From positions 1,860,001 through 1,924,000 of the forward strand of contig NZ_UHCT01000001.1 of the NCBI RefSeq assembly GCF_900458435.1: a stretch of 64,000 bases of DNA, read 5' to 3'. A program made the translations under genes and the position numbers. The number at the start of each line of letters is the position of its first letter. Position 1 is the stretch's first letter. Under the pieces are notes generated by a model. The model was not told the origin of the DNA. It did no database searches and saw only the letters and a program-made list of their open reading frames with translations. This document shows positions 24,374-34,875 of the stretch, in pieces. Source of the stretch: Staphylococcus carnosus. Its GTDB lineage: Bacteria; Bacillota; Bacilli; Staphylococcales; Staphylococcaceae.

Positions 24374-25282
24374 ATGTCAACACCAATAATTATAGATACA
24401 GATCCTGGTATTGATGATGCAGCTGCAATCAGCATTGCACTTAATCATCCTGATTTAGATTTAAAAATGATTACTACAGTCAATGGAAATGTAAATATCC
24501 ATAAAACTACAAGCAACGCATTGCAATTAAAAGCATTTTTCAACAGCGATGTTCCAGTACATCAAGGTGCAGCTACCCCTCTTATCAATCAACCTGTCGA
24601 TGCTGAACATGTTCATGGTGAAACGGGAATGGCTGGTTATGAATTCCCAGAAGCAAATTATGACTTATTAGATTCAGAAAATGCTGTTAAAGCTATGAAA
24701 GATACTTTATTAAATTCAGACGAACCCATTACTTTAGTTCCTATTGGTCCATTGACTAATATCGCTTTATTACTAAAAACATATCCTGAAGTGACTGATC
24801 ACATTAAAGAAATCATACTAATGGGCGGAAGTGCTGGCAGAGGAAATGTTACCCCTGCTGCTGAATTCAATATTTACTGTGACCCTGAAGCTGCAGATAT
24901 TGTTTTTAATGCGCATATTCCCATTACAATGGTCGGTTTAGACGTAGCACGCGGTGCTAGCCTATCATATGATGCAATAAATGAATTACAAAGTCAGAAT
25001 AAAACGTCTAATATGCTTTATCATATGTTCAATCATTATCATGGAGACCAATTCGGCAAAGGCATTGCAGTATATGATGCCTATACCATCCTTTATTTAC
25101 TTCATCCCGAAAACTTTACAGTAGAAGATGCAGCAGTGAACATTGAGTTAACGGGCACCTATACTAAAGGAGAAACTGTAGTAGATTTTAATAGCAAAAC
25201 AACAAATGCCAAAGTAGTCCTTTCAGTTGATAAATCTAAATTTAAAACTATGCTTTTTGATGCATTATCATATGCTAAATAA
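24374..25282 (+). CDS. inosine-uridine preferring nucleoside hydrolase family protein
   Basis: A 302-residue protein of the nucleoside N-ribohydrolase family, which cleaves ribonucleosides to base and ribose. The N-terminal IIDTDPGIDDAAAI has the calcium-binding D-x-D-x-x-x-D-D cluster. VPIGPLTNIA lies near 119-128, the MGGSAGRGN loop near 151-159 and AEFNIYCDPEAAD near 164-176. Substrate preference (RihA/B/C type) cannot be read from sequence. TGGAGGATG precedes ATG 24374. It lies just upstream of the lacR-like gene, on the same strand with an 80-bp gap, and is the first gene of the accessory block after qox. Confidence 0.85.
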   Translation: MSTPIIIDTDPGIDDAAAISIALNHPDLDLKMITTVNGNVNIHKTTSNALQLKAFFNSDVPVHQGAATPLINQPVDAEHVHGETGMAGYEFPEANYDLLDSENAVKAMKDTLLNSDEPITLVPIGPLTNIALLLKTYPEVTDHIKEIILMGGSAGRGNVTPAAEFNIYCDPEAADIVFNAHIPITMVGLDVARGASLSYDAINELQSQNKTSNMLYHMFNHYHGDQFGKGIAVYDAYTILYLLHPENFTVEDAAVNIELTGTYTKGETVVDFNSKTTNAKVVLSVDKSKFKTMLFDALSYAK

Positions 25283-25362
25283 GACACATATTTAATAAAA
25301 GCACTATCATACTATATGCTATAATAATCTTAAGTTAAGAAAAAAAGACGCAGGTTGTGAAA

Positions 25363-26115
25363 ATGTTGAATTTAAAAGAAGAACGTCATCAATTTATTCT
25401 AAAAAAACTAAAGCAATCCAAAAGTGTATCCGTCAAAGATTTATCAGAAGAAATGCATGTGGTGCCTATGACAATCCGTAGAGATTTGAAGGAACTTGAA
25501 CAAAAATCTTTATTGGTTAGAGTACACGGAGGAGCTGTAGATTCTACAACTTTCTACGATGAATTGGCAAATGAAGAAAAGCAACAATTAAACAGTGAGA
25601 ACAAACGTGTTATAGCTGAAAAAGCCAGCCAATTAATTCGTAACGACGATATTATTTTTATTGGTTCAGGCACTACAAACGAAGCTATTTTTCCATACAT
25701 CAAAGATTTGAACTTACATATCATTACCAATTCGCTCTTTATATTTGAACAATACAAAGATATAGAAAATATGGATGTGGTTTTAATTGGTGGAAGATAT
25801 CGAAGAAAAACCGGTTCGTTTATAGGACATTTAGCAATTTCAATGCTCAAAAATTTACACATAGATAAAGCTTTTATCGGGGTAAACGGTATTATGGATG
25901 ATGAAGCAACAACAGCTAATGAAGAAGAAGGAATTGCGAATGAACTTATCTTAAGTCAATCTACAGAAAAGTATTTAGTGTCAGACAGTTCTAAGTTTAA
26001 TACACGCGCATTTACCCCTTTTTATAAAATCAGAGATTTAGATGCTATTATTACAGATAAAGAAATATTTCGAGAAGTCGAAGACTATTATAGTAAGCTC
26101 ACTAAAATTTTATAA
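25363..26115 (+). CDS. lacR: DeoR-family repressor, LacR type
   Basis: A 250-residue DeoR/LacR-type repressor. The N-terminal winged helix-turn-helix includes SVSVKDLSEEMHVVPMTIRR and RVHGGAV. The sugar-phosphate sensor domain has GSGTTNEAIF near 96-105, ITNSLFIF, LIGGRYRRKTGSFIG and the late DSSKFNTRAF. ATG 25363 has CAGG 8 bases upstream; GTG 25357 would be too close. A terminator separates it from lacA. Tagatose-6-phosphate is the inducer known for staphylococcal LacR; this protein is the obvious candidate to bind the repeated GAACA operator found at both lac promoters. Confidence 0.8.
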   Translation: MLNLKEERHQFILKKLKQSKSVSVKDLSEEMHVVPMTIRRDLKELEQKSLLVRVHGGAVDSTTFYDELANEEKQQLNSENKRVIAEKASQLIRNDDIIFIGSGTTNEAIFPYIKDLNLHIITNSLFIFEQYKDIENMDVVLIGGRYRRKTGSFIGHLAISMLKNLHIDKAFIGVNGIMDDEATTANEEEGIANELILSQSTEKYLVSDSSKFNTRAFTPFYKIRDLDAIITDKEIFREVEDYYSKLTKIL

Positions 26116-26127
26116 CACTATTAGAAC

Positions 26128-26159
26128 ATAAACGCACATTTCAGATGTGCGTTTTTTTA
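26128..26159 (+). terminator. terminator of lacR
   Basis: AACGCACA pairs with TGTGCGTT around TTTCAGA and is followed by T tract. Confidence 0.8.
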
Positions 26160-26232: not shown

Positions 26233-26261
26233 TTGACATACTTATAAGCAAAGTGTATATT
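26233..26261 (+). promoter_or_regulatory. lacABCD promoter
   Basis: A near-consensus promoter: TTGACA (26233-26238), 17-bp spacer, TATATT (26256-26261). The candidate operator starts 8 bp after it. Confidence 0.75.
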
Positions 26262-26269
26262 CTATATGA

Positions 26270-26294
26270 GAACAATTTCAAACATTTTCGAACA
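26270..26294 (+). promoter_or_regulatory. candidate LacR operator at lacA (three xAACA units, 10-bp period)
   Basis: GAACA (26270), AAACA (26280) and GAACA (26290), each separated by ATTTC or TTTTC. It begins exactly 8 bp after the -10 box, covers the probable transcription start and runs into the lacA ribosome binding site. The same arrangement and spacing occur on the minus strand at 34723-34747 upstream of lacF. Binding by LacR is inferred. Confidence 0.65.
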
Positions 26295-26306
26295 GGAGGA
26301 TTTATT

Positions 26307-26738
26307 ATGTCTATTGTTATTCATAGCGATGCACAATCACAAGAATTAAAAGATTTTATTCTAAAATCATTAGCTGATGCAGATTACGAAATCGAGGATT
26401 TATCAGCAAGTAGTTCAGCAAAAACAATTGATGAAATTACTTTTGAGGTTACTAAATATGTTCAAGAACATGAAGGTACTAAAGCAATTATTATTGATAA
26501 ATATGGTATTGCGCCTTTTATTCTTGCTAATAAACAAAAAAACATCATTGCTGCAACTGTTTCTGACGAGCAATCAGCAAAAATGACGCATAGACACAAT
26601 AATACAAACGTTATCGTTTTAGGCAGTGAAGTTGTAGGTAAACTTAATGCTTTAAACTGTGTTAAAGCATTCTTAAAAGCTGGATACGACGCTGGACGTC
26701 ATCAAATCAGAATTGATATGTTGAATTCTTTATGTTAA
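26307..26738 (+). CDS. lacA: galactose-6-phosphate isomerase subunit LacA
   Basis: LacA and LacB together convert galactose-6-phosphate to tagatose-6-phosphate. I place the start at ATG 26307, 6 bases after CAGGAGGA, giving 143 residues beginning MSIVIHSDAQ; the open frame extends to 26253 across the operator and is not a real start. The product belongs to the RpiB/LacAB fold, with the HRHNNTNVIVLGSEVVG segment near 95-111 typical of LacA. It is the first gene of lacABCD and 18 bases from lacB. Confidence 0.9.
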   Translation: MSIVIHSDAQSQELKDFILKSLADADYEIEDLSASSSAKTIDEITFEVTKYVQEHEGTKAIIIDKYGIAPFILANKQKNIIAATVSDEQSAKMTHRHNNTNVIVLGSEVVGKLNALNCVKAFLKAGYDAGRHQIRIDMLNSLC

Positions 26739-26756
26739 TAGGAGGATATTAAGATT

Positions 26757-27272
26757 ATGAAAATAGCTATTGGTTGTGACCATATTGTTACTAATATTAA
26801 AGCAGAAGTTGCTACTTATTTAAAAAATAACAGACACGAAGTTATTGATGTCGGGACTTACGATTATGTACGTACTCACTATCCTATTTATGGTACACGT
26901 ATTGGTGAATTAGTTGCTAATGGAGATGTAGATTTCGGGGTTGCTTTATGCGGTACTGGTGTAGGTATTTCAGCTAGTGCAGATAAAGTACCTGGAACTC
27001 GTGTCGCACTTGTTCGAGATGCTACAAGCGCTCGTTTAGCTAAAAGTGAATACAATTGTAATATTATTGCAGCTGGAGGCATGGTTACAGGCGTTGATCT
27101 TATTAAAAATATCGTTGATACATTTGCTGAAACAGAATATGAACCAACTCCAGAAAAAGAAGCACTTATCAAGGTCATGAATGAATCATTAAAACCAGAA
27201 GATGTTCATTATTCACACGAAATGTTCGATGGTTACTTAAAAAAATGGGATAACGGAGAATACCACGACTAA
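26757..27272 (+). CDS. lacB: galactose-6-phosphate isomerase subunit LacB
   Basis: LacB is the catalytic partner of LacA. The 171-residue RpiB-type protein starts MKIAIGCDHIVTNIK and carries the CGTGVGISASADKVPG loop near 65-80 and RVALVRDATSARLA. Length and motifs match staphylococcal LacB. AGGAGG lies upstream, and the stop overlaps the lacC start by one base. Confidence 0.95.
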   Translation: MKIAIGCDHIVTNIKAEVATYLKNNRHEVIDVGTYDYVRTHYPIYGTRIGELVANGDVDFGVALCGTGVGISASADKVPGTRVALVRDATSARLAKSEYNCNIIAAGGMVTGVDLIKNIVDTFAETEYEPTPEKEALIKVMNESLKPEDVHYSHEMFDGYLKKWDNGEYHD

Positions 27273-28219
27273 TGACTTTTAAATTATTAACCGTTACATT
27301 AAACCCAGCAATCGACATCAATTACCCTATTAAAAATTTTGAAGTAAATACTGTTCAACGTGCTTCAGAAGATTACAAATCTGCTGGAGGAAAAGGAATT
27401 AATGTCGCACGGGTAGCTAACGAACTAGGACTTTCTGTAACTTGTACAGGAATTATCGGCGGTAAATTCGGCGAATGGCTTACTAATAATTTAGATGAAA
27501 CAAATATCAAACACGATTTTACTGTTTCCCCCGCTTCTACAAGACTTTGTATCGCTATCAACAGTGAAGGTAGTCAAACAGAAATTTTAGAAAGCGGCGC
27601 TTTACAACCAGAAGAAATTCAGACACGATTTTTAGATCATTTCAATACCATTGTATCTAATTATGATTTAATCACAATTTCAGGCAGCTTACCAAAAGGC
27701 TTCCCAGAAAATTATTACGTTAAATTATTAGAAATTGCACATAAACAAGGTATTCCTGTGTGCTTAGATACTTCTGGAAAAGTACTGAATTATACAGTAA
27801 CACATTCAACGCACTGTCCTCCCCTGCTCATCAAACCAAATGATGAAGAAATTAACGAAATTACAAGTACAGATAATTTAGATTTAGCTAATCAATTATT
27901 AGATGAACGCTTAGCTCATATACCATATATTTTATTATCATTAGGTAAAAATGGTGCGTTATTGCGTTATAAAGACGAAGTTTACAATATTGATATTCCT
28001 AAAATAATTGCAGTAAATCCAGTAGGTTCTGGAGATAGCAGTTTAGCTGGTTTCAGTTATGGACTTTCACAAAGTAATAGCTTTGATAAAGCAGCCAAAT
28101 TTGCTATGGCAGCAGGAATTTCAAATGCATTAGAAGCAAGAACTGGACATGTTGATTTAGATAACTTTAAAAAATTTAGTAATCAAATAATTATTGAAAA
28201 GGTGGCAAAAACCTCATGA
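27272..28219 (+). CDS. lacC: tagatose-6-phosphate kinase
   Basis: LacC phosphorylates tagatose-6-phosphate to tagatose-1,6-bisphosphate. The 315-residue PfkB-family kinase has LNPAIDINY near 10-18, [15 protein letters not shown] near 38-52 and the ATP/catalytic motif [13 protein letters not shown] near 249-261 with the catalytic Asp. It overlaps lacB by 1 base and lacD by 4 bases. Confidence 0.94.
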
Positions 28220-29151
28220 CAAAATCCATCAAACCTTTATTAAATGACAAAAACTACATCGCTGCATTAGCAATCGACCAACGTGGTGCTTTAAAACGTT
28301 TATTAGGAGAAGATGCTAAAACAGAAGACTTAGAACAATTTAAAGTACATGTTTCTGAAGAATTAACTCCTTACGCTTCAAGTATCTTACTTGATCCTGA
28401 ATACGGTTTACCAGCAACAAAAGTACGCGCTAAAAACTCTGGTTTATTACTTGCTTATGAAAAAACTGGTTATGATTCATCAGAACCAGGTCGTCTTCCT
28501 GACTTATTGAATGTTTGGTCTGTTAAACGTCTTAAAGAAGCTGGCGCAGATGCTGTAAAATTATTAGTATATGTAGACATTGATGAAGATAAAGCAATTA
28601 ACGATCAAAAAGAAGCTTTCGTTGAACGTGTTGGAAGCGAATGTGTTGCTGAAGGTTTACCTTTATTCTTGGAAATCGTTTCTTATGATGCTAACAATGC
28701 TGATAGCGGTTCTGAAGAATATGCTAAAGTTAAAGCACATAAAGTAAATGAAGCAATGAAAAAATATTCAGAACCACGTTTTAATGTTGACGTATTAAAA
28801 GTAGAAGTACCTGTTAATATGAACTTTGTTGAAGGATTTGGTGAAAAAGCATTATTCACTAAAGAAGAAGCTGTTCAAGCATTTAAAGAACAAGCAGCAT
28901 CTACAAACTTGCCTTATATTTACTTAAGTGCTGGTGTATCTGCTGATTTATTCCAAAAAACTTTATACTTTGCTAAAGAAGCAGGTTCTACTTTCAATGG
29001 TGTATTATGTGGACGTGCAACTTGGAGAGGTGCTACTGATCACTTTGCTGAAGGTGATGCAGCTGTTCAAGAATGGTTCCGCACTGAAGGTAAATCAAAT
29101 ATCGAAAGTTTAAATAAAGTATTAGACGAAACTGCTACACCAATTAAATAA
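28216..29151 (+). CDS. lacD: tagatose-1,6-bisphosphate aldolase
   Basis: LacD splits tagatose-1,6-bisphosphate into dihydroxyacetone phosphate and glyceraldehyde-3-phosphate. The 311-residue class I aldolase has [12 protein letters not shown] near 18-29, [13 protein letters not shown] near 56-68, the KLLVYVD segment, [12 protein letters not shown] with the probable Schiff-base lysine, and [15 protein letters not shown] 28216 has AAGGTGG upstream. It is the last gene of the + strand lac operon. In S. aureus lacF follows lacD directly; here a terminator and arsBC follow. Confidence 0.95.
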
Positions 29152-29175
29152 CAAAAATAATGTTTTTTTGACTTA

Positions 29176-29211
29176 AACCACCAATCATACTAAATGGTTG
29201 GTGGTTTTTTC
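29176..29211 (+). terminator. terminator of lacABCD
   Basis: AACCACCAA pairs with TTGGTGGTT (with a weaker inner CAT/ATG stem) and is followed by T6. It separates the operon from arsB. Confidence 0.85.
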
Positions 29212-29288
29212 ATATATACAATAAGTATCGGTTGGTGCTATCATATGATTTATAAAATAAATCTTAAAGAGAAAAAAGGATTTTTTAA

Positions 29289-30578
29289 ATGGCAATGATT
29301 GCACTTATTATTTTTATAATGACACTTATTTTTATAATATGGCAGCCCAAAGGATTAGACGTTGGCATTACAGCAATTATTGGAGCCTTACTTGCCTTAA
29401 TAACAGGTGTGGTTTCTATTCATGATTTAGGTGAAGTGACACAAATTGTCTGGAACGCTACCCTTACATTTGTCGCATTAATTATCATTTCACTTATTTT
29501 AGATGAAATCGGTTTTTTCGAATGGGCAGCTCTTCATATGGTTCGTGCTTCAAAAGGTAATGGTATCCGTATGTTTATTTATATCATACTTTTAGGTGCC
29601 TTAATTGCAGCTTTATTTGCAAATGACGGTGCAGCTTTAATACTGACGCCTATTGTCCTTGCTATGGTAAGACATCTCAACTTCAATAAAAGGTATATAT
29701 TCCCATTTATTATTGCTTGTGGATTTATTGCAGATACAACCTCATTACCTTTAATTGTAAGTAACTTAGTTAATATTGTATCCGCGGATTATTTCAACAT
29801 TAATTTTATTGAGTATTTCCTCAAAATGATAATCCCAAATCTATTTTCTTTAATCGCAAGTATTTTAATTTTATTTCTTTATTTTCATAAAAGTATTCCT
29901 GACACTGTGGATATTTCAAAGTTATCCCCTCCCGAAAGCGCGATTAAAGACACACAATTATTTAAATTATCTTGGTTAGTTATCATTTTATTACTCAGTG
30001 GTTATCTTATAAGTGAGTTCACAGGTATTCCGGTTTCTATTATTGCAGGCATTATAGCACTAGTTTTCCTTTTATTAGCGAAAAAATCAAAAGCTGTAAA
30101 TACTAAAGAAGTTATTAAAGGGGCACCATGGAATATTGTTGTATTTTCAATTGGAATGTATCTTGTTGTTTTCGGATTAAAAAATGCAGGCATTACGACA
30201 CTACTATCAGAGATCATAAATCAAATTTCGCAATTTGGTTTATTTTCAAGCGTAATCGGTATGGGCTTCTTATCTGCAATTTTATCTGCAATTATGAATA
30301 ATATGCCTACAGTCATGATAGATGCTATAGCTATTAACCAAGCACATGCTTCCGGATTAATTAAAGAGGCACTTGTATATGCAAACATAATCGGCGCTGA
30401 TTTAGGGCCTAAACTTACCCCTATCGGTTCTCTAGCAACTTTATTGTGGCTTCATGTTCTTTCACAAAAAGGCATGAAAATTTCATGGGGCGTTTATTTT
30501 AAAACAGGAGTTATTATTACCATACCTGTCTTACTCGCAACATTGATAGGATTATATATATCGATGTTATTATTTTAA
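29289..30578 (+). CDS. arsB: arsenite efflux pump ArsB
   Basis: ArsB exports arsenite across the plasma membrane. The 429-residue polytopic protein (about 12 segments) matches staphylococcal ArsB in length and motifs: [15 protein letters not shown] near 72-86, [20 protein letters not shown] near 111-130, [13 protein letters not shown] near 338-350 and [20 protein letters not shown] near 373-392. AAAAGGA lies 8 bases before ATG 29289. No arsR gene is adjacent and none was found in the window, which is unusual for an ars locus. arsC follows after 15 bases. Confidence 0.93.
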
Positions 30579-30593
30579 ACAAGGGGTTTCAAA

Positions 30594-30995
30594 ATGAGCC
30601 ATAATACAATTTACTTTATTTGTACTGGAAATGCATGTCGAAGCCAAATGGCTGAAGGTTATGCTAAAGATATATTAGGAGAAAATTGGAACGTTTATTC
30701 AGGTGGAATTGAGTCGCATGGTGTCAATCCGTTAGCAATCGAAGCAATGAAAGAAGACGGCATTGATATCAGTCATCAAACTTCTGATAAAATTACTGAA
30801 CAAGATTTAAAATCTGCCGACCTAGTTATTACATTATGCGATCATGCTGATAAAAACTGTTCTGTTGTTTCTTCTAATGTACAAAGAATGCATTGGGGAT
30901 TTGAAGACCCAGCAGGGAAAGATTGGTCAAAATTCCAAGAAGTGAGAGATAATATAAAAAAACGTATTCAATATTTTAAAGAAACTGGATGTTAA
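30594..30995 (+). CDS. arsC: thioredoxin-coupled arsenate reductase
   Basis: ArsC reduces arsenate to arsenite for export by ArsB. The 133-residue protein is of the low-molecular-weight phosphatase fold typical of plasmid pI258 ArsC, with the C10-TGNAC-R16 loop and the redox cysteines Cys82 and Cys89 all present, so it should be active. AAGGGG precedes ATG 30594. It converges on lacG, with a shared hairpin between. Confidence 0.95.
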
Positions 30996-31000
30996 CAAAT

Positions 31001-31027
31001 AAAGCCTCGGCAGTGCCAAGGCTTTAA
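31001..31027. terminator. bidirectional terminator between arsC and lacG
   Basis: AAAGCCTCGGC pairs with GCCAAGGCTTT (one mismatch) between the convergent genes. Confidence 0.7.
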
Positions 31028-31036
31028 ACATTAATA

Positions 31037-32443
31037 TTATTTTCCATAAATATCTAATGAAAGTGCTTTATACCATTTTGCACTATCTTTGATATAACGT
31101 TTTTGTGTTTCGAAATCAATGTAGAATAATCCGTAACGTTTGTTATATCCATTTGACCAACTGAACATATCTTGTAATGACCAAACAAAGTATCCTTTAA
31201 CATTAACACCATCAACGTACGCACGTTCAATCTCATCAATGTGTTGACGGATATAGCCAATACGATCTTCGTCATGAACTTCTCCATTTTCTTCTAGAAC
31301 ATCTTTATAACCTAAACCATTTTCAGTGATATAGATTTTTTTGTAATTTGGATAGTCATTTTTAATACGTAAAATCATATCATATAATCCTTGAGGATAA
31401 ATGTACCAATCCCAGTCATTTGTCGGAATAGCTTCATTTTTAACTACTTCACCAATACCTTTAACTCGGAAAACAGAAGTTCCTTTGTCACCAGTACCAT
31501 TATGGTGAATATAGCTTTCTTGATTATGATATTTAATCCAGTTACTTTGGTAATAATTAATTCCTAAGAAATCAAGTTGAGGAGCTGCTTTACGCATTTC
31601 TTCTAACTCTTCTTCACGTATATCTAATTTTTCAAATTCGTCTCCTAAAATTTCACGAACTACTGTTAATTTTTCAGGAGTATAGTAACCCAAGAAAGTT
31701 CCGTCTAACATAAAACCGTTCATGAATATATCATGCTTATATGCGGCAATTTGATTCAGCGGTTGATTGTCGATGCTGTAAAATTGCGTTAAAGCATGAA
31801 TTAAGCCGATTTCCCCTTCGTAACCTTTAGATTTGAAAAGGTTAACTACTCGGCTGTGAGCTACGATTTGATTATGTTGCGCTTGAAGACATTTTAAAGT
31901 ATTGTATTGCTCACCAGGCGGGAAGGCACCTGTAATGTATTGTCCTTGAACATAAGCAATAGGTTCGTTGATAGTCATCCAATGTTTTACAATGTCATGA
32001 TATTCATCAAACACTAACTCAGCAAATCTATCAAATGCATCAAGTTGCGCTTTATTTAACCAGTCTCCTTTTTCAAAAAGCGTTTCTGGTGTATCAAAGT
32101 GATGTAATGTCACATAAGGTTCAACGCCATATTTATGACAAGTTTCAAAAACATTTCTATAGTATTCTATACCTTTAGGATTAACTTCTCCTGTTCCATC
32201 AGGTATAATTCTAGACCATGCTACTGAAATACGGATACCTTTAATACCATATTCAGATGCTAAGCGAATATCTTCTTCATAACGATTGTAGAAATCACTT
32301 GCTGGATCTGGAGAAAATCTCCCTTGTTTTTCTAAAAATCCGTCCCATAAAGCTCTACCTTTACCGTCAACAGTACTAGAACCTTCAACTTGATACGCAG
32401 CAGTTGCCGCACCTAATACAAAGTCTTTAGGCAATTTACTCAT
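31037..32443 (-). CDS. lacG: 6-phospho-beta-galactosidase
   Basis: LacG hydrolyses lactose-6-phosphate to glucose and galactose-6-phosphate. The 468-residue GH1 protein has the acid/base Glu in MTINEP near 159 and the nucleophile Glu in YITENGLGY near 371, plus the C-terminal SNGYNKRYGLF phosphate-binding segment. The start was set to ATG 32443, 7 bases after AAGGAGA; the frame continues to 32494 into the intercistronic hairpin. It is the last gene of the minus-strand lacFEG operon. Confidence 0.95.
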   Translation of the reverse strand: MSKLPKDFVLGAATAAYQVEGSSTVDGKGRALWDGFLEKQGRFSPDPASDFYNRYEEDIRLASEYGIKGIRISVAWSRIIPDGTGEVNPKGIEYYRNVFETCHKYGVEPYVTLHHFDTPETLFEKGDWLNKAQLDAFDRFAELVFDEYHDIVKHWMTINEPIAYVQGQYITGAFPPGEQYNTLKCLQAQHNQIVAHSRVVNLFKSKGYEGEIGLIHALTQFYSIDNQPLNQIAAYKHDIFMNGFMLDGTFLGYYTPEKLTVVREILGDEFEKLDIREEELEEMRKAAPQLDFLGINYYQSNWIKYHNQESYIHHNGTGDKGTSVFRVKGIGEVVKNEAIPTNDWDWYIYPQGLYDMILRIKNDYPNYKKIYITENGLGYKDVLEENGEVHDEDRIGYIRQHIDEIERAYVDGVNVKGYFVWSLQDMFSWSNGYNKRYGLFYIDFETQKRYIKDSAKWYKALSLDIYGK

Positions 32444-32490
32444 TATAATGTCTCCTTTTTTATTTAGAATCTTCAATATGATTATTTCAC

Positions 32491-32565
32491 ACACAAATGG
32501 TGCCCCTTACCGCTTATGCAAGTTCATGATGTCGTGGGTAATGCAGCAAGGGGCAATATTTGTGT
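32491..32565 (-). repeat. long inverted repeat between lacE and lacG
   Basis: ACACAAAT-GG-TGCCCCTT (32491-32508) is mirrored by AAGGGGCA-AT-ATTTGTGT (32548-32565): two 8-bp perfect stems with a 2x2 internal loop and a 39-base apical region. No T tract follows on the transcribed side, so it is more likely an mRNA-processing, stabilising or pausing structure than a simple terminator. Confidence 0.6.
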
Positions 32566-32577
32566 ACTTCCTGAATA

Positions 32578-34278
32578 TTATTTTTGGTTTTCGTTGATTT
32601 TTTCAAAAATCAATTTCATTGCGCCTTCTCCATCTCGAGTTAAGCCAATGTATTGTTTACCTGTCGTTGGTACTAAAACTGCACCATATTGATCTGTGTA
32701 TTTTCTCATTTCGTCTTTCATCGCATCCATTTGAGGTGCAAGAATTACAATATCCATATCTTTAATTAAGTCCATATCCTGACCATATGCACGTGCTGTT
32801 GCTTCTAATGGAATGTCATTATCTTTAGCATATTTATTTAAGCTATTTGCCAAGATACCACTTGTTCCACCACCCGCACATACAACTAAAACATTTGTAT
32901 GTTCACGTGAATTGTAATCTGGAGTATTTTCTTCCACTTCTACAGGAGCAGTTGCAGCAGCGCCTGCTTCAGCACCAGCAACAGCAACTCCGCTTGCTTT
33001 CGCTAATTCGATTTCACGTTCTTCATCTAATTTCAATTTGTCATACGCTTTTACAAATGGGAACCAAATTGAAAAGTCTAAAACTAAGATTATGGCAATT
33101 AATAATAGTGATAATACTGAGAAGTTTGATGCCATATAGATACCAATTGGACCTGGAGTCGGCCATGGTAAGAAGTGCATAAATCCGTTCATTCCTAAAT
33201 TATCTACGAAGAATTTTAAGACCCATGAGTTTAAAATTGGTGTAATAATGAATGGAATCATAAATACTGGGTTCAAGATAATTGGTGCACCGAATAATAA
33301 CGGTTCATTTACCGCAAAGGTTGTCGGGATAAAGGACGCTTTACCCACCGCTTTCAGCTCCGGTGATTTACACAACAACATGAACATATAAGGAACTAAT
33401 AACGTTGCCCCTGTACCACCGATAAGTGCAACAAAGTCTTGAGTTGATTGTGTTAATGCATAATGTGCATGTTCACCTGCTCTGAATAAACGTAAGTTTT
33501 CAACTTGGTTATTGTACATAATCGCGATTACAGCCGGACCTACAACTGATGGTCCATGTACACCGATAAACCAGAAGAAAGCCATAAATCCAAAGATGAT
33601 CGCAAAGCCTAAGTAACCGTTAGCGGCTCTGAATAATGGAGATAATAAATTAGTAACAAGTTCTGCAGTATTACCTTTAGAAAATGCTCTTACAACAATA
33701 TCTACAATCCAGAAGAATGATACTGAAAATGCAAAAGGAATCATATCTTTAAATGCCTGTGCAATGTTACCTGGTACTTGAGGCGGCATTTTAATTGTGA
33801 TATTTCTACCAATACAGAATTTGTAAATATTAGGTACAATAAATGCTACTAAGAACGCTGCGATTAATCCTTTAGTACCTAATAATTCGATGCTGATACC
33901 GTCTTTAATAGGTTTCACAGCTAAAATCAATAATGATGATTCAGCTGCTACAAAAGTTGAAATTACGTTAATTTGGTTCGTTTTTGGTAATTTCAAATTT
34001 CGATTGTCTGTTAATGATTTAGTAACAGTACCTGCCATGAATACAGCAAGAATCCCCATTGTAAAGTTGTAAACTTTCATGATGATATCTTCAATATTTT
34101 TCGGCCAATGGAAGCCCCAAACGTTCGGTACATATGCTACTAAGATAAATAAAGATGAAAATAGTACTACTGGCATTAAAGCCACGAAACCATCACGTAT
34201 TGCAGATAAATAAGGGTTAGATGCAATCTTTTCAAAAAATGGCTTCATTTTTTCAATCATTTTGATAATTTTATTCAT
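32578..34278 (-). CDS. lacE: PTS lactose transporter EIICB
   Basis: LacE imports lactose with phosphorylation. The 566-residue protein has an EIIC membrane domain (residues 1 to about 420; GVHGPSVVGPAVIAI near 240-254 and NEPLLFGAPIILNP near 324-337), an alanine/glutamate-rich linker near 432-455, and a C-terminal EIIB domain whose phospho-Cys lies in VVCAGGGTSG near 468-477. The 12-bp gap to lacF and the long hairpin before lacG fit one transcript running lacF-lacE-lacG. Length is close to the S. aureus protein. Confidence 0.96.
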   Translation of the reverse strand: MNKIIKMIEKMKPFFEKIASNPYLSAIRDGFVALMPVVLFSSLFILVAYVPNVWGFHWPKNIEDIIMKVYNFTMGILAVFMAGTVTKSLTDNRNLKLPKTNQINVISTFVAAESSLLILAVKPIKDGISIELLGTKGLIAAFLVAFIVPNIYKFCIGRNITIKMPPQVPGNIAQAFKDMIPFAFSVSFFWIVDIVVRAFSKGNTAELVTNLLSPLFRAANGYLGFAIIFGFMAFFWFIGVHGPSVVGPAVIAIMYNNQVENLRLFRAGEHAHYALTQSTQDFVALIGGTGATLLVPYMFMLLCKSPELKAVGKASFIPTTFAVNEPLLFGAPIILNPVFMIPFIITPILNSWVLKFFVDNLGMNGFMHFLPWPTPGPIGIYMASNFSVLSLLLIAIILVLDFSIWFPFVKAYDKLKLDEEREIELAKASGVAVAGAEAGAAATAPVEVEENTPDYNSREHTNVLVVCAGGGTSGILANSLNKYAKDNDIPLEATARAYGQDMDLIKDMDIVILAPQMDAMKDEMRKYTDQYGAVLVPTTGKQYIGLTRDGEGAMKLIFEKINENQK

Positions 34279-34290
34279 GCTGTCACCTGC

Positions 34291-34623
34291 TTATTGTTGT
34301 TTTAAATCATGTAGTTGTTCATAAAGATCAATCATGTAATTTGCTGCATCACGTAATGCCATTGTTGTCATCAAATGGTCTTGACCATGTACCATGATAA
34401 AACTAATATCAGATGCTTCTCCGGCTGCTTCTTTTGCTAACATTTGTGTTTGTTCTTTGTGTGCTTCAGTGATGAAATCATTTGCTTCTACAATATGTTG
34501 ACGGGCTTGTTCGAAGTTGTTATCTTTAGCAGCAGCTAAAGCAGCCATAACCTCACGACGTGCATCGCCTGCAATTGCTACGATTGTAAAACCAATCATC
34601 ATATTTTCTTCTTTGTTGCTCAT
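34291..34623 (-). CDS. lacF: PTS lactose EIIA component
   Basis: LacF passes phosphate from HPr to the EIIB domain of LacE. The 110-residue helical protein has the family motif MVHGQDHLMT with the phosphorylated His79 and metal-binding Asp82, and the early FTIVAIAGDAR segment. It is the first gene of lacFEG, reading towards lacG, the opposite direction to lacABCD. A promoter and candidate LacR operator lie upstream. Confidence 0.94.
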   Translation of the reverse strand: MSNKEENMMIGFTIVAIAGDARREVMAALAAAKDNNFEQARQHIVEANDFITEAHKEQTQMLAKEAAGEASDISFIMVHGQDHLMTTMALRDAANYMIDLYEQLHDLKQQ

Positions 34624-34722
34624 GGTATTTCCCCCCTCATGATGTTGTGTGTAATAGTATTATTTATCAACGAAAACGAACCTCAACGATCAATATTCAA
34701 AAATATAATCGCAGCATTTATT

Positions 34723-34747
34723 TGTTCGTTAATGTTCGTTTTTGTTC
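34723..34747 (-). promoter_or_regulatory. candidate LacR operator at lacF (three GAACA units, 10-bp period)
   Basis: On the minus strand, GAACA-AAAAC-GAACA-TTAAC-GAACA. It starts 8 bp after the -10 box, the same distance as the matching element at lacA. A further related element, AAAACGAAC on the plus strand at 34674-34682, lies between it and the gene as an inverted copy. Confidence 0.65.
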
Positions 34748-34755
34748 ACAATAAT

Positions 34756-34784
34756 AATGTAACTTTTCCCTATGGTATAGTCAA
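34756..34784 (-). promoter_or_regulatory. lacFEG promoter
   Basis: Minus strand: TTGACT (34779-34784), 17-bp spacer, TACATT (34756-34761), followed 8 bp later by the GAACA repeats. The surrounding 34624-34875 holds only leader and promoter sequence. Confidence 0.6.
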
Positions 34785-34875
34785 TTCAAAATTCAAAAAA
34801 TTATCTAGTTTGCAATAACTTTTGACAAATAAAGTACATAATATGTAATTAAAATTCTCATGTCCTATCTTTCCA

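Follow-up and report, generated by a model that had tools for sequence, protein, structure and literature searches.

Three same-sense RAACA units past two lac promoters of Staphylococcus carnosus are predicted operators of the adjacent LacR

In Staphylococcus aureus and Lactococcus lactis, tagatose-6-phosphate is the inducer of LacR. The L. lactis repressor reportedly acts at two operators, lacO1 and lacO2, in which van Rooijen and de Vos are said to have found TGTTT repeats. Tagatose phosphate is also named as the ligand of the streptococcal LacR in the available text on S. mutans (PMC3832376), and the LacR regulons of lactic acid bacteria have been reconstructed in a study whose available text does not give the motif (PMC3616900); predictions of LacR sites therefore already exist. 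Among other DeoR-family regulators, the available portions of the papers describe two imperfect direct repeats at 10-11 base pairs (bp) as the motifs of RhaR (PMC3870299) and four repeating non-palindromic sequences for the DeoR-type FruR of L. lactis (PMC2222622). In this study, we analyzed a stretch of 64,000 nucleotides (nt) of S. carnosus (NCBI RefSeq assembly GCF_900458435.1, contig NZ_UHCT01000001.1, positions 1,860,001 to 1,924,000 of the forward strand; hereafter the window), in which two lac operons each carry, just past the promoter, an element of three RAACA units (R, A or G). DeoR operators built of direct repeats on a 10-11 bp period are already known; what appears to be new is the same-sense 10-bp triple at the predicted start site. 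In a literature survey made mostly without subscription papers and without RegPrecise, no description of this triple site was found in the available parts of PMC3616900, PMC5156439, PMC4694137, PMC3870299, PMC3750489, PMC3472324, PMC6528599, PMC3302838, PMC3832376, and PMC2222622.

The window and the lactococcal system share a DeoR-family LacR, the RAACA/TGTTY unit, and a tandem layout near 10 or 11 bp. However, the lactococcal LacR belongs to another clade and its units lie at 11 bp in both orientations, whereas those of the window lie three in the same sense at 10 bp. In plasmid DNA of L. garvieae, AAACA was observed three times at 11 bp upstream of lacA, and AAACA/TGTTT repeats were visible. 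The lac promoters of the S. aureus type, a label that we gave from the layout lacR-lacABCDFEG presumed for S. aureus, also have three units about one turn apart; these are, however, TGTT units of the opposite sense, spaced 11 and 10 bp and lying over the -35 and -10 hexamers, whereas the window has RAACA units at 10 bp past the -10. The RhaR motifs differ from the window triple in having two imperfect repeats, another sequence, and another pathway. FruR, which was likened by description only, is a DeoR-type regulator with several repeats but concerns fructose genes.

We consider it very probable that both elements are operators of the adjacent DeoR-family LacR and control lacABCD and lacFEG. 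This prediction is built on their sequence, spacing, position at the promoter, conservation, and co-occurrence with this type of LacR across genera, all of which were observed directly. Each element (Table 1) is 25 bp long and consists of three 5-bp units and two 5-bp spacers on a 10-bp period, and the promoters at lacA and lacF are of the sigma-70 type. Both elements are thus direct repeats close to the promoter of the operon in question, and their period lies within the 10-11 bp expected of a DeoR-type operator. A previous reading of the window from its letters and open reading frames (ORFs), hereafter the sequence-only reading, had given the coordinates, letters, and spacings of both elements, with AAACA as the middle unit at lacA, and had claimed that the 17-bp promoter spacers and the start 8 nt past the -10 are the same at lacA and lacF; when checked in the sequence, all of these were right. 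Its further statement that the element is absent upstream of the lacR-like gene and arsB was also borne out, as a weight matrix built from lac and gat sites, the lacA and lacF sites of the window included, found no place scoring at least 16 there and only those two sites in the window. The lacA operator abuts GGAGG, and 12 nt lie between its end and the lacA ATG (26307). A promoter scan was uninformative by itself (55 promoter-like sites versus 55.5 expected); since it found no more than shuffled sequence did, the hexamer calls at lacA and lacF rest on conservation.

Conservation was examined in a clade of eight genomes, namely that of the window and seven relatives (G017, G020, G049, and G062-G065), to which S. 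auricularis (G007) was added separately. In the seven relatives, the unit bases were identical to those of the window at 97% (lacA) and 99% (lacF), and the -35 and -10 hexamers at 100%. The bases between the units were identical at 79% (lacA) and 94% (lacF), the 17-bp promoter spacers at 57% and 63%, and the remaining flanks at 59% and 67%. When S. auricularis was counted, the values were 95% and 98% for the units, 99-100% for the hexamers, and 56-67% overall for the flanks. The conservation in relatives to which the sequence-only reading had looked was thus found at both lac promoters of the clade relatives, and more weakly at lacA of S. auricularis. Furthermore, when exact RAACA triples were counted by spacing from 6 to 18 bp in nine loci of the clade relatives and S. 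auricularis, 12 were found at 10 bp and 1 elsewhere, and 11 of the 12 stood at lac promoters. Degenerate units were the third of lacA in G017 (GAATA), the first of lacA in G064 and G065 (GCACA), and the third of lacF in G065 (GAACG). Separately, the lac operons of three relatives appeared to be decaying (L071/L072 of G017, L069 of G062, and L070 of G065), with lacD broken in all three. The lacE matches of G017 lie about 34 kb apart and lacF is broken in G065, the two genomes also having degenerate single operator units; in G062, lacE and lacG are shortened with about 6 kb between them.

The name lacR was assigned to the window gene from its place and from the tree; no NCBIfam model exceeded its cut-off with the protein. 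In a tree of 128 rows, the window LacR fell inside a LacR group of 70 rows (support 100/98) that includes the S. aureus-type and L. garvieae LacR. It thus adjoins genes for lactose and tagatose-6-phosphate and groups with lac-linked LacR proteins. The clade of S. aureus/L. lactis-type LacR (99/94 in this tree; 98/98 in the tree of the LacB sample described below) excludes it, and the LacR proteins not belonging to the S. aureus-type clade formed one clade (98/94) in the 128-row tree and a grade in the LacB-sample tree. Left out of the 128-row tree were L066, L069, and L070 (near-copies in the clade), L123 (short), and L155-L158 and L183 (genomes duplicating G loci). Labels were clustered, with 8 changes versus 14.4 when shuffled in the 128-row tree (0 of 500 shuffles as low) and 11 versus 14.4 in the LacB-sample tree (11 of 500 as low). 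The recognition helix reads VVPMTIRRDLKELE in the window LacR and mostly VSDMTVRRDLxELE in S. aureus-type LacR; we make no claim on helix specificity, since LacR relatives were found partly via the peptide RRDLKELE. A sequence search of solved structures gave no DNA-bound relative, its two matches being a DeoR effector domain and a MarR-like protein.

LacR relatives were collected via two conserved peptides, and the best 80 of 282, which make up a biased set, gave 24 loci of other genera (L159-L182, 419 kb). Counted by spacing as above, exact RAACA triples in these loci numbered 12 at 10 bp versus 1 at all other spacings; the 12 correspond to 11 separate sites in 8 of the 24 loci. They stand before lacR and lacF in two Enterococcus loci, before lacA and lacC (Sporolactobacillus), lacD (Fundicoccus), lacR (Atopococcus), and gatA (Eubacterium multiforme), and before a kinase-like gene in two Anaerococcus loci. 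A weight matrix was then trained on 27 exact triples, from which two had been dropped (one inside lacE of L069 and, in L163, one that overlapped another), and it raised the other-genus loci with a site scoring at least 16 to 16 of 24. A scan of 38 loci gave 55 matrix matches of at least 16, or 47 after merging overlaps, versus 10 for the reversed matrix, counts that are partly circular because many of these loci served for training and because LacR peptides had been used to locate the loci. Of the merged sites, 37 begin 6-12 nt past the best-matching -10, and all stand ahead of a lac, gat, lacR, kinase-like, or hydrolase gene save L068:12105, one in L172 (ahead of an EIIA-like ORF), and L076:11699 (ahead of an antiterminator-like ORF). 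Weaker matrix copies were observed in S. coagulans and at the lac promoters of additional loci of the Anaerococcus type. Four Gemella LacR genes that have no neighboring lac genes had no site nearby. The LacR-operator proposal of the sequence-only reading accordingly passed these comparisons, in that the triple of other genera lies at tagatose-6-phosphate pathway genes beside LacR. Separately, four imperfect units in 10-bp phase were seen at lacA promoters of Anaerococcus (L166:4591-4625 and L167:5417-5451), an indication that arrays read by LacR can exceed three units. The lacF operon of S. coagulans seems to be headed by the antiterminator-like ORF, which we take to resemble a BglG-type antiterminator, with the near-perfect triple at L076:11699 ahead of it.

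A second sample was drawn through LacB, for which 398 genomes of the class were searched. Matches were obtained in 59 genomes at 63 places, 42 of them outside the genus; of the latter, 35 were taken by hand. This sample was not selected on the regulator. The regulator could be placed in 33 of the 35 loci (L350 holds a 129-residue piece only and L357 none). In this sample, 21 matrix sites were found versus 3 with the reversed matrix, a count that is not circular. The promoters of lac, gat, or lacR carried a site in 10 of 12 loci with LacR outside the S. aureus type versus 5 of 21 with the S. aureus type (two-sided Fisher p 0.0014) and, with near copies dropped, in 7 of 9 versus 5 of 18 (p 0.037), where the LacR groups were defined after the sites were known and related loci are not independent.

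In 37 upstream regions of lacA from S. aureus-type and related loci, TGTT triples spaced 11 then 10 bp were found in 19 and one of 11 and 11 bp was found once, with no other combination of 9-12 bp; in the sequences inspected, these triples overlie the -35/-10 region. The weight matrix gave four matches only, scoring 16-18, in 454 kb of these S. aureus-type and related loci. We regard the chances as about even that one code is common to the LacR proteins lying outside the S. aureus/L. lactis clade, in which three same-sense RAACA units one turn apart from about +1 would co-regulate lac, lacR, and gat in several Bacillota families, and that the S. aureus-type clade has mostly turned the unit round and moved it onto the -35 and -10. 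By eye, a cre-like box (cre, catabolite-responsive element) was seen after the TGTT units in many S. aureus-type regions.

The triple was also observed at gat genes. In G049, a third exact triple begins 6 nt past a TTGACG-17-TATAAT promoter ahead of gatA-gatB-gatC-gatA2, the EIIC of which is a Gat-family relative (213.9 bits, far under the galactitol subfamily cut-off of 542.2). GAACA-AAACA-AAACA at 10 bp stands at the same place before gatA in G062 and G063, the contig of the latter ending within the gene. Such a triple at gat in three clade genomes would be expected of a regulator that senses an intermediate of the tagatose-6-phosphate pathway. In S. pneumoniae, gatABC is tabulated with galactose in the available text of PMC3302838; hence the gat phosphotransferase system (PTS) likely brings galactose into the LacAB-CD route. 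Confinement of the triple to lac promoters, for which the sequence-only reading had proposed a check, did not stand in that form, as the triple also occurs before gatA in these three genomes and, in other places, before lacR and before kinase-like and hydrolase genes. A GatC of this kind is absent from the window genome at E 1e-20, and the predicted LacR regulon of that genome therefore consists of the two lac operons.

Several observations weigh against a LacR operator of this form. Of the 24 other-genus LacR loci, 16 have no exact triple and 8, the four Gemella loci included, have no matrix site scoring at least 16. In the LacB sample, L333 and L343 have LacR outside the S. aureus type and no site at a lac, gat, or lacR promoter, and five loci with S. 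aureus-type LacR do carry a site, which in some of them lies in A-rich DNA only. Ahead of the gat operon of G014, a genome whose LacR and lac operon are of the S. aureus type, AAACA occurs three times at 10 bp. The 37 lacA upstream regions also contain AACA pairs of the same sense, 27 spaced 11 bp and 11 spaced 10 bp, and the turn in orientation is accordingly a tendency, not a rule. The first lacA unit of S. auricularis is slipped and degenerate, and the lacA site of S. coagulans (L076:5029-5073) skips one unit, giving 10 and then 20 bp. Finally, in a different genus of the family, three genomes (G150, G153, and G154; L303, L306, and L308) were found in which AAACA-N5-RAACA-N5-AAACA lies close after a -10-like box at a lipoprotein gene of an ATP-binding cassette (ABC) transporter. 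A RAACA triple also stands before an oxidoreductase-like gene in G154 and, in G150, before a PTS cluster with relatives of LacF, LacE, and LacG (31-43% identity). The sites at the lipoprotein genes apparently belong to another regulon, and the triple grammar may thus serve other regulators and not be exclusive to LacR.

The triples at the ABC lipoprotein genes would fit a reading in which another DeoR-family or an unrelated regulator, instead of the adjacent LacR, reads the triples of the window, and the own genome holds four further DeoRC matches. Two of these (L246 and L249), however, fall outside the LacR group, L252 is unplaced, and only a partial match lies at 1589925; moreover, the triple in other genera is found at lac, gat, and lacR promoters beside LacR of this type. 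We therefore judge such a regulator improbable. Much less probable still is that the triples form the direct-repeat box of a PhoP- or WalR-like response regulator of the OmpR type. Boxes of that type are also short tandem repeats, the WalR box being TGTAA-n6-TGTAA in the available text of PMC3472324, but its spacing is 11 bp, whereas the lac triples keep exactly 10 bp over three units, lie past the -10, and occur at sugar genes adjoining LacR.

The occurrence of the pattern was examined at several scales. In the whole 2.58-Mb genome, GAACA-N5-(A/G)AACA-N5-GAACA with at most 1 mismatch matched only the lacA and lacF elements, so that no unrelated promoter of the own genome carries the triple at this level, in agreement with the sequence-only reading. 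With at most 2 mismatches there were 9 matches, the other 7 all having 2 mismatches; the reversed control pattern gave 7 matches at this level and 1 with at most 1 mismatch. Within the window, at most 2 mismatches gave 2 matches versus 0.24 expected from 100 shuffles, of which 2 reached 2. At the level of the genus (84 genomes), the strict GAACA triple with at most 1 mismatch gave 28 matches versus 32 for the reversed pattern. The sequence-only reading, which had looked to such a scan, was upheld for the 14 matches at lac promoters and not for the remainder, 1 at a gat promoter and 13 elsewhere. The strict triple was accordingly dropped as a genus-wide marker, as it was not enriched. Exact RAACA triples in the genus numbered 47 (18 at lac or gat promoters and 29 elsewhere) versus 36 for the control; of 20 matches inspected away from lac and gat, among 30 rows with a locus, 15 lie within open frames of at least 150 codons. 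An order-level scan of 157 genomes gave 33 matches outside the genus, 16 of which were inspected. The pattern alone does not define a regulon; position and conservation make these sites special.

The lack of genome-wide enrichment is what chance AT-rich repeats beside promoters would give. However, conservation of the unit bases comes close to that of the promoter hexamers, and the 10-bp spacing alone is enriched; because the units are conserved, chance repeats are very unlikely. From the off-lac rate in the genus (14 in 84 genomes), about 3e-6 matches would be expected in two 50-nt promoter windows, an estimate that assumes uniform positions and is uncorrected for promoter composition. A C-extended pattern, CRAACA three times, was also tried on the 398 genomes of the class and rejected as too strict, since no C precedes the first unit of the window sites; it gave 6 matches in 5 genomes and 0 in the genus. 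CGAAC is half of the Bacillus-type SOS box, and the LexA box consists of inverted GAAC...GTTC halves. Two of the CRAACA matches were inspected (L323 and L324, from distant Bacilli) and resemble SOS boxes, but the window sites have three units in one direction and no inverted partner GTTC, and LexA boxes or half boxes are the least credible of the explanations considered.

For the preferred reading, in which the adjacent LacR acts on both elements, we infer the transcription start, LacR binding, repression, and the inducer as follows. Without inducer, LacR subunits would fill the three consecutive RAACA units on one helix face, from about +1 to +26, and the bound repressor would stop initiation or promoter escape at lacABCD and lacFEG. 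Lactose would enter by LacEF and be cut by LacG, and the galactose-6-phosphate or tagatose-6-phosphate formed would release LacR, so that both operons open together. Bridging of the two facing promoters, 8.45 kb apart, by LacR oligomers has no support here. If LacR does read these elements, they would provide a precise operator code for LacR outside the S. aureus/L. lactis clade and join lac and gat (galactose-type PTS) genes in one predicted regulon. One repressor family would then have kept its recognition unit and changed its orientation or order and its place, a natural comparison of a repressor shifting between promoter occlusion and start-site block.

Table 1 Features of the lac region in the window.
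Feature	Position	Strand	Description
lacA promoter	26233..26261	+	TTGACA -35, 17-bp spacer, TATATT -10; 11/12 consensus, top score of promoter scan
lacA operator	26270..26294	+	GAACA ATTTC AAACA TTTTC GAACA, starts 8 nt past -10
lacF promoter	34756..34784	-	TTGACT -35, 17-bp spacer, TACATT -10; 9/12 consensus
lacF operator	34723..34747	-	GAACA AAAAC GAACA TTAAC GAACA, starts 8 nt past -10
lacR	25357..26115	+	DeoR-family repressor; HTH_DeoR 10-61, DeoRC 79-235, both over Pfam cut-offs
lacA-lacB-lacC-lacD	26307..29151	+	tagatose-6-phosphate pathway operon
lacF-lacE-lacG	31037..34623	-	lactose-type PTS and phospho-beta-galactosidase operon, convergent with lacABCD
Terminator-like hairpin after lacR	26130..26154	+	hairpin scan
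Terminator-like hairpin, strong, after lacD, before arsB	29175..29207	+	hairpin scan
Terminator-like hairpin after lacG	31000..31026	-	hairpin scan
Inosine-uridine-type nucleoside hydrolase gene	24374..25282	+	family assignment by Pfam

Among the lac gene products, LacB and LacD exceeded the equivalog or subfamily cut-off of that name, and LacA and LacC exceeded broader subfamily cut-offs only. LacG was over its cut-off, LacE was over the lactose/cellobiose subfamily cut-off and under the lactose-specific one, and LacF was under the EIIA-LAC cut-off. The hairpin scan of the region gave 8 terminator-like sites versus 5.9 expected. The strict cre pattern had 0 matches in the window versus 1.15 expected.

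In the window and each of the seven clade relatives, the nucleoside hydrolase gene lies directly 5' of lacR; at the locus of S. auricularis it was not found. The pair arsB-arsC (29289-30995, + strand) is situated between the lac operons, which converge; the interval between lacD and arsB holds no ORF of at least 80 amino acids that could be arsR. ArsB is present at the locus in all seven clade relatives, five of which also have ArsC, and S. auricularis is without it.

In the lacF leader, past the operator and ahead of the start codon (34640-34715, - strand), the blocks GCTGCGAT and TCG.T..CGTTGAT are kept in all eight clade genomes. About 40 bp 5' of the lacF -35 (34821-34840, - strand), a block TATGTxxxTTATTTGTCA is alike in the clade relatives, and it is possibly the site of a second regulator.

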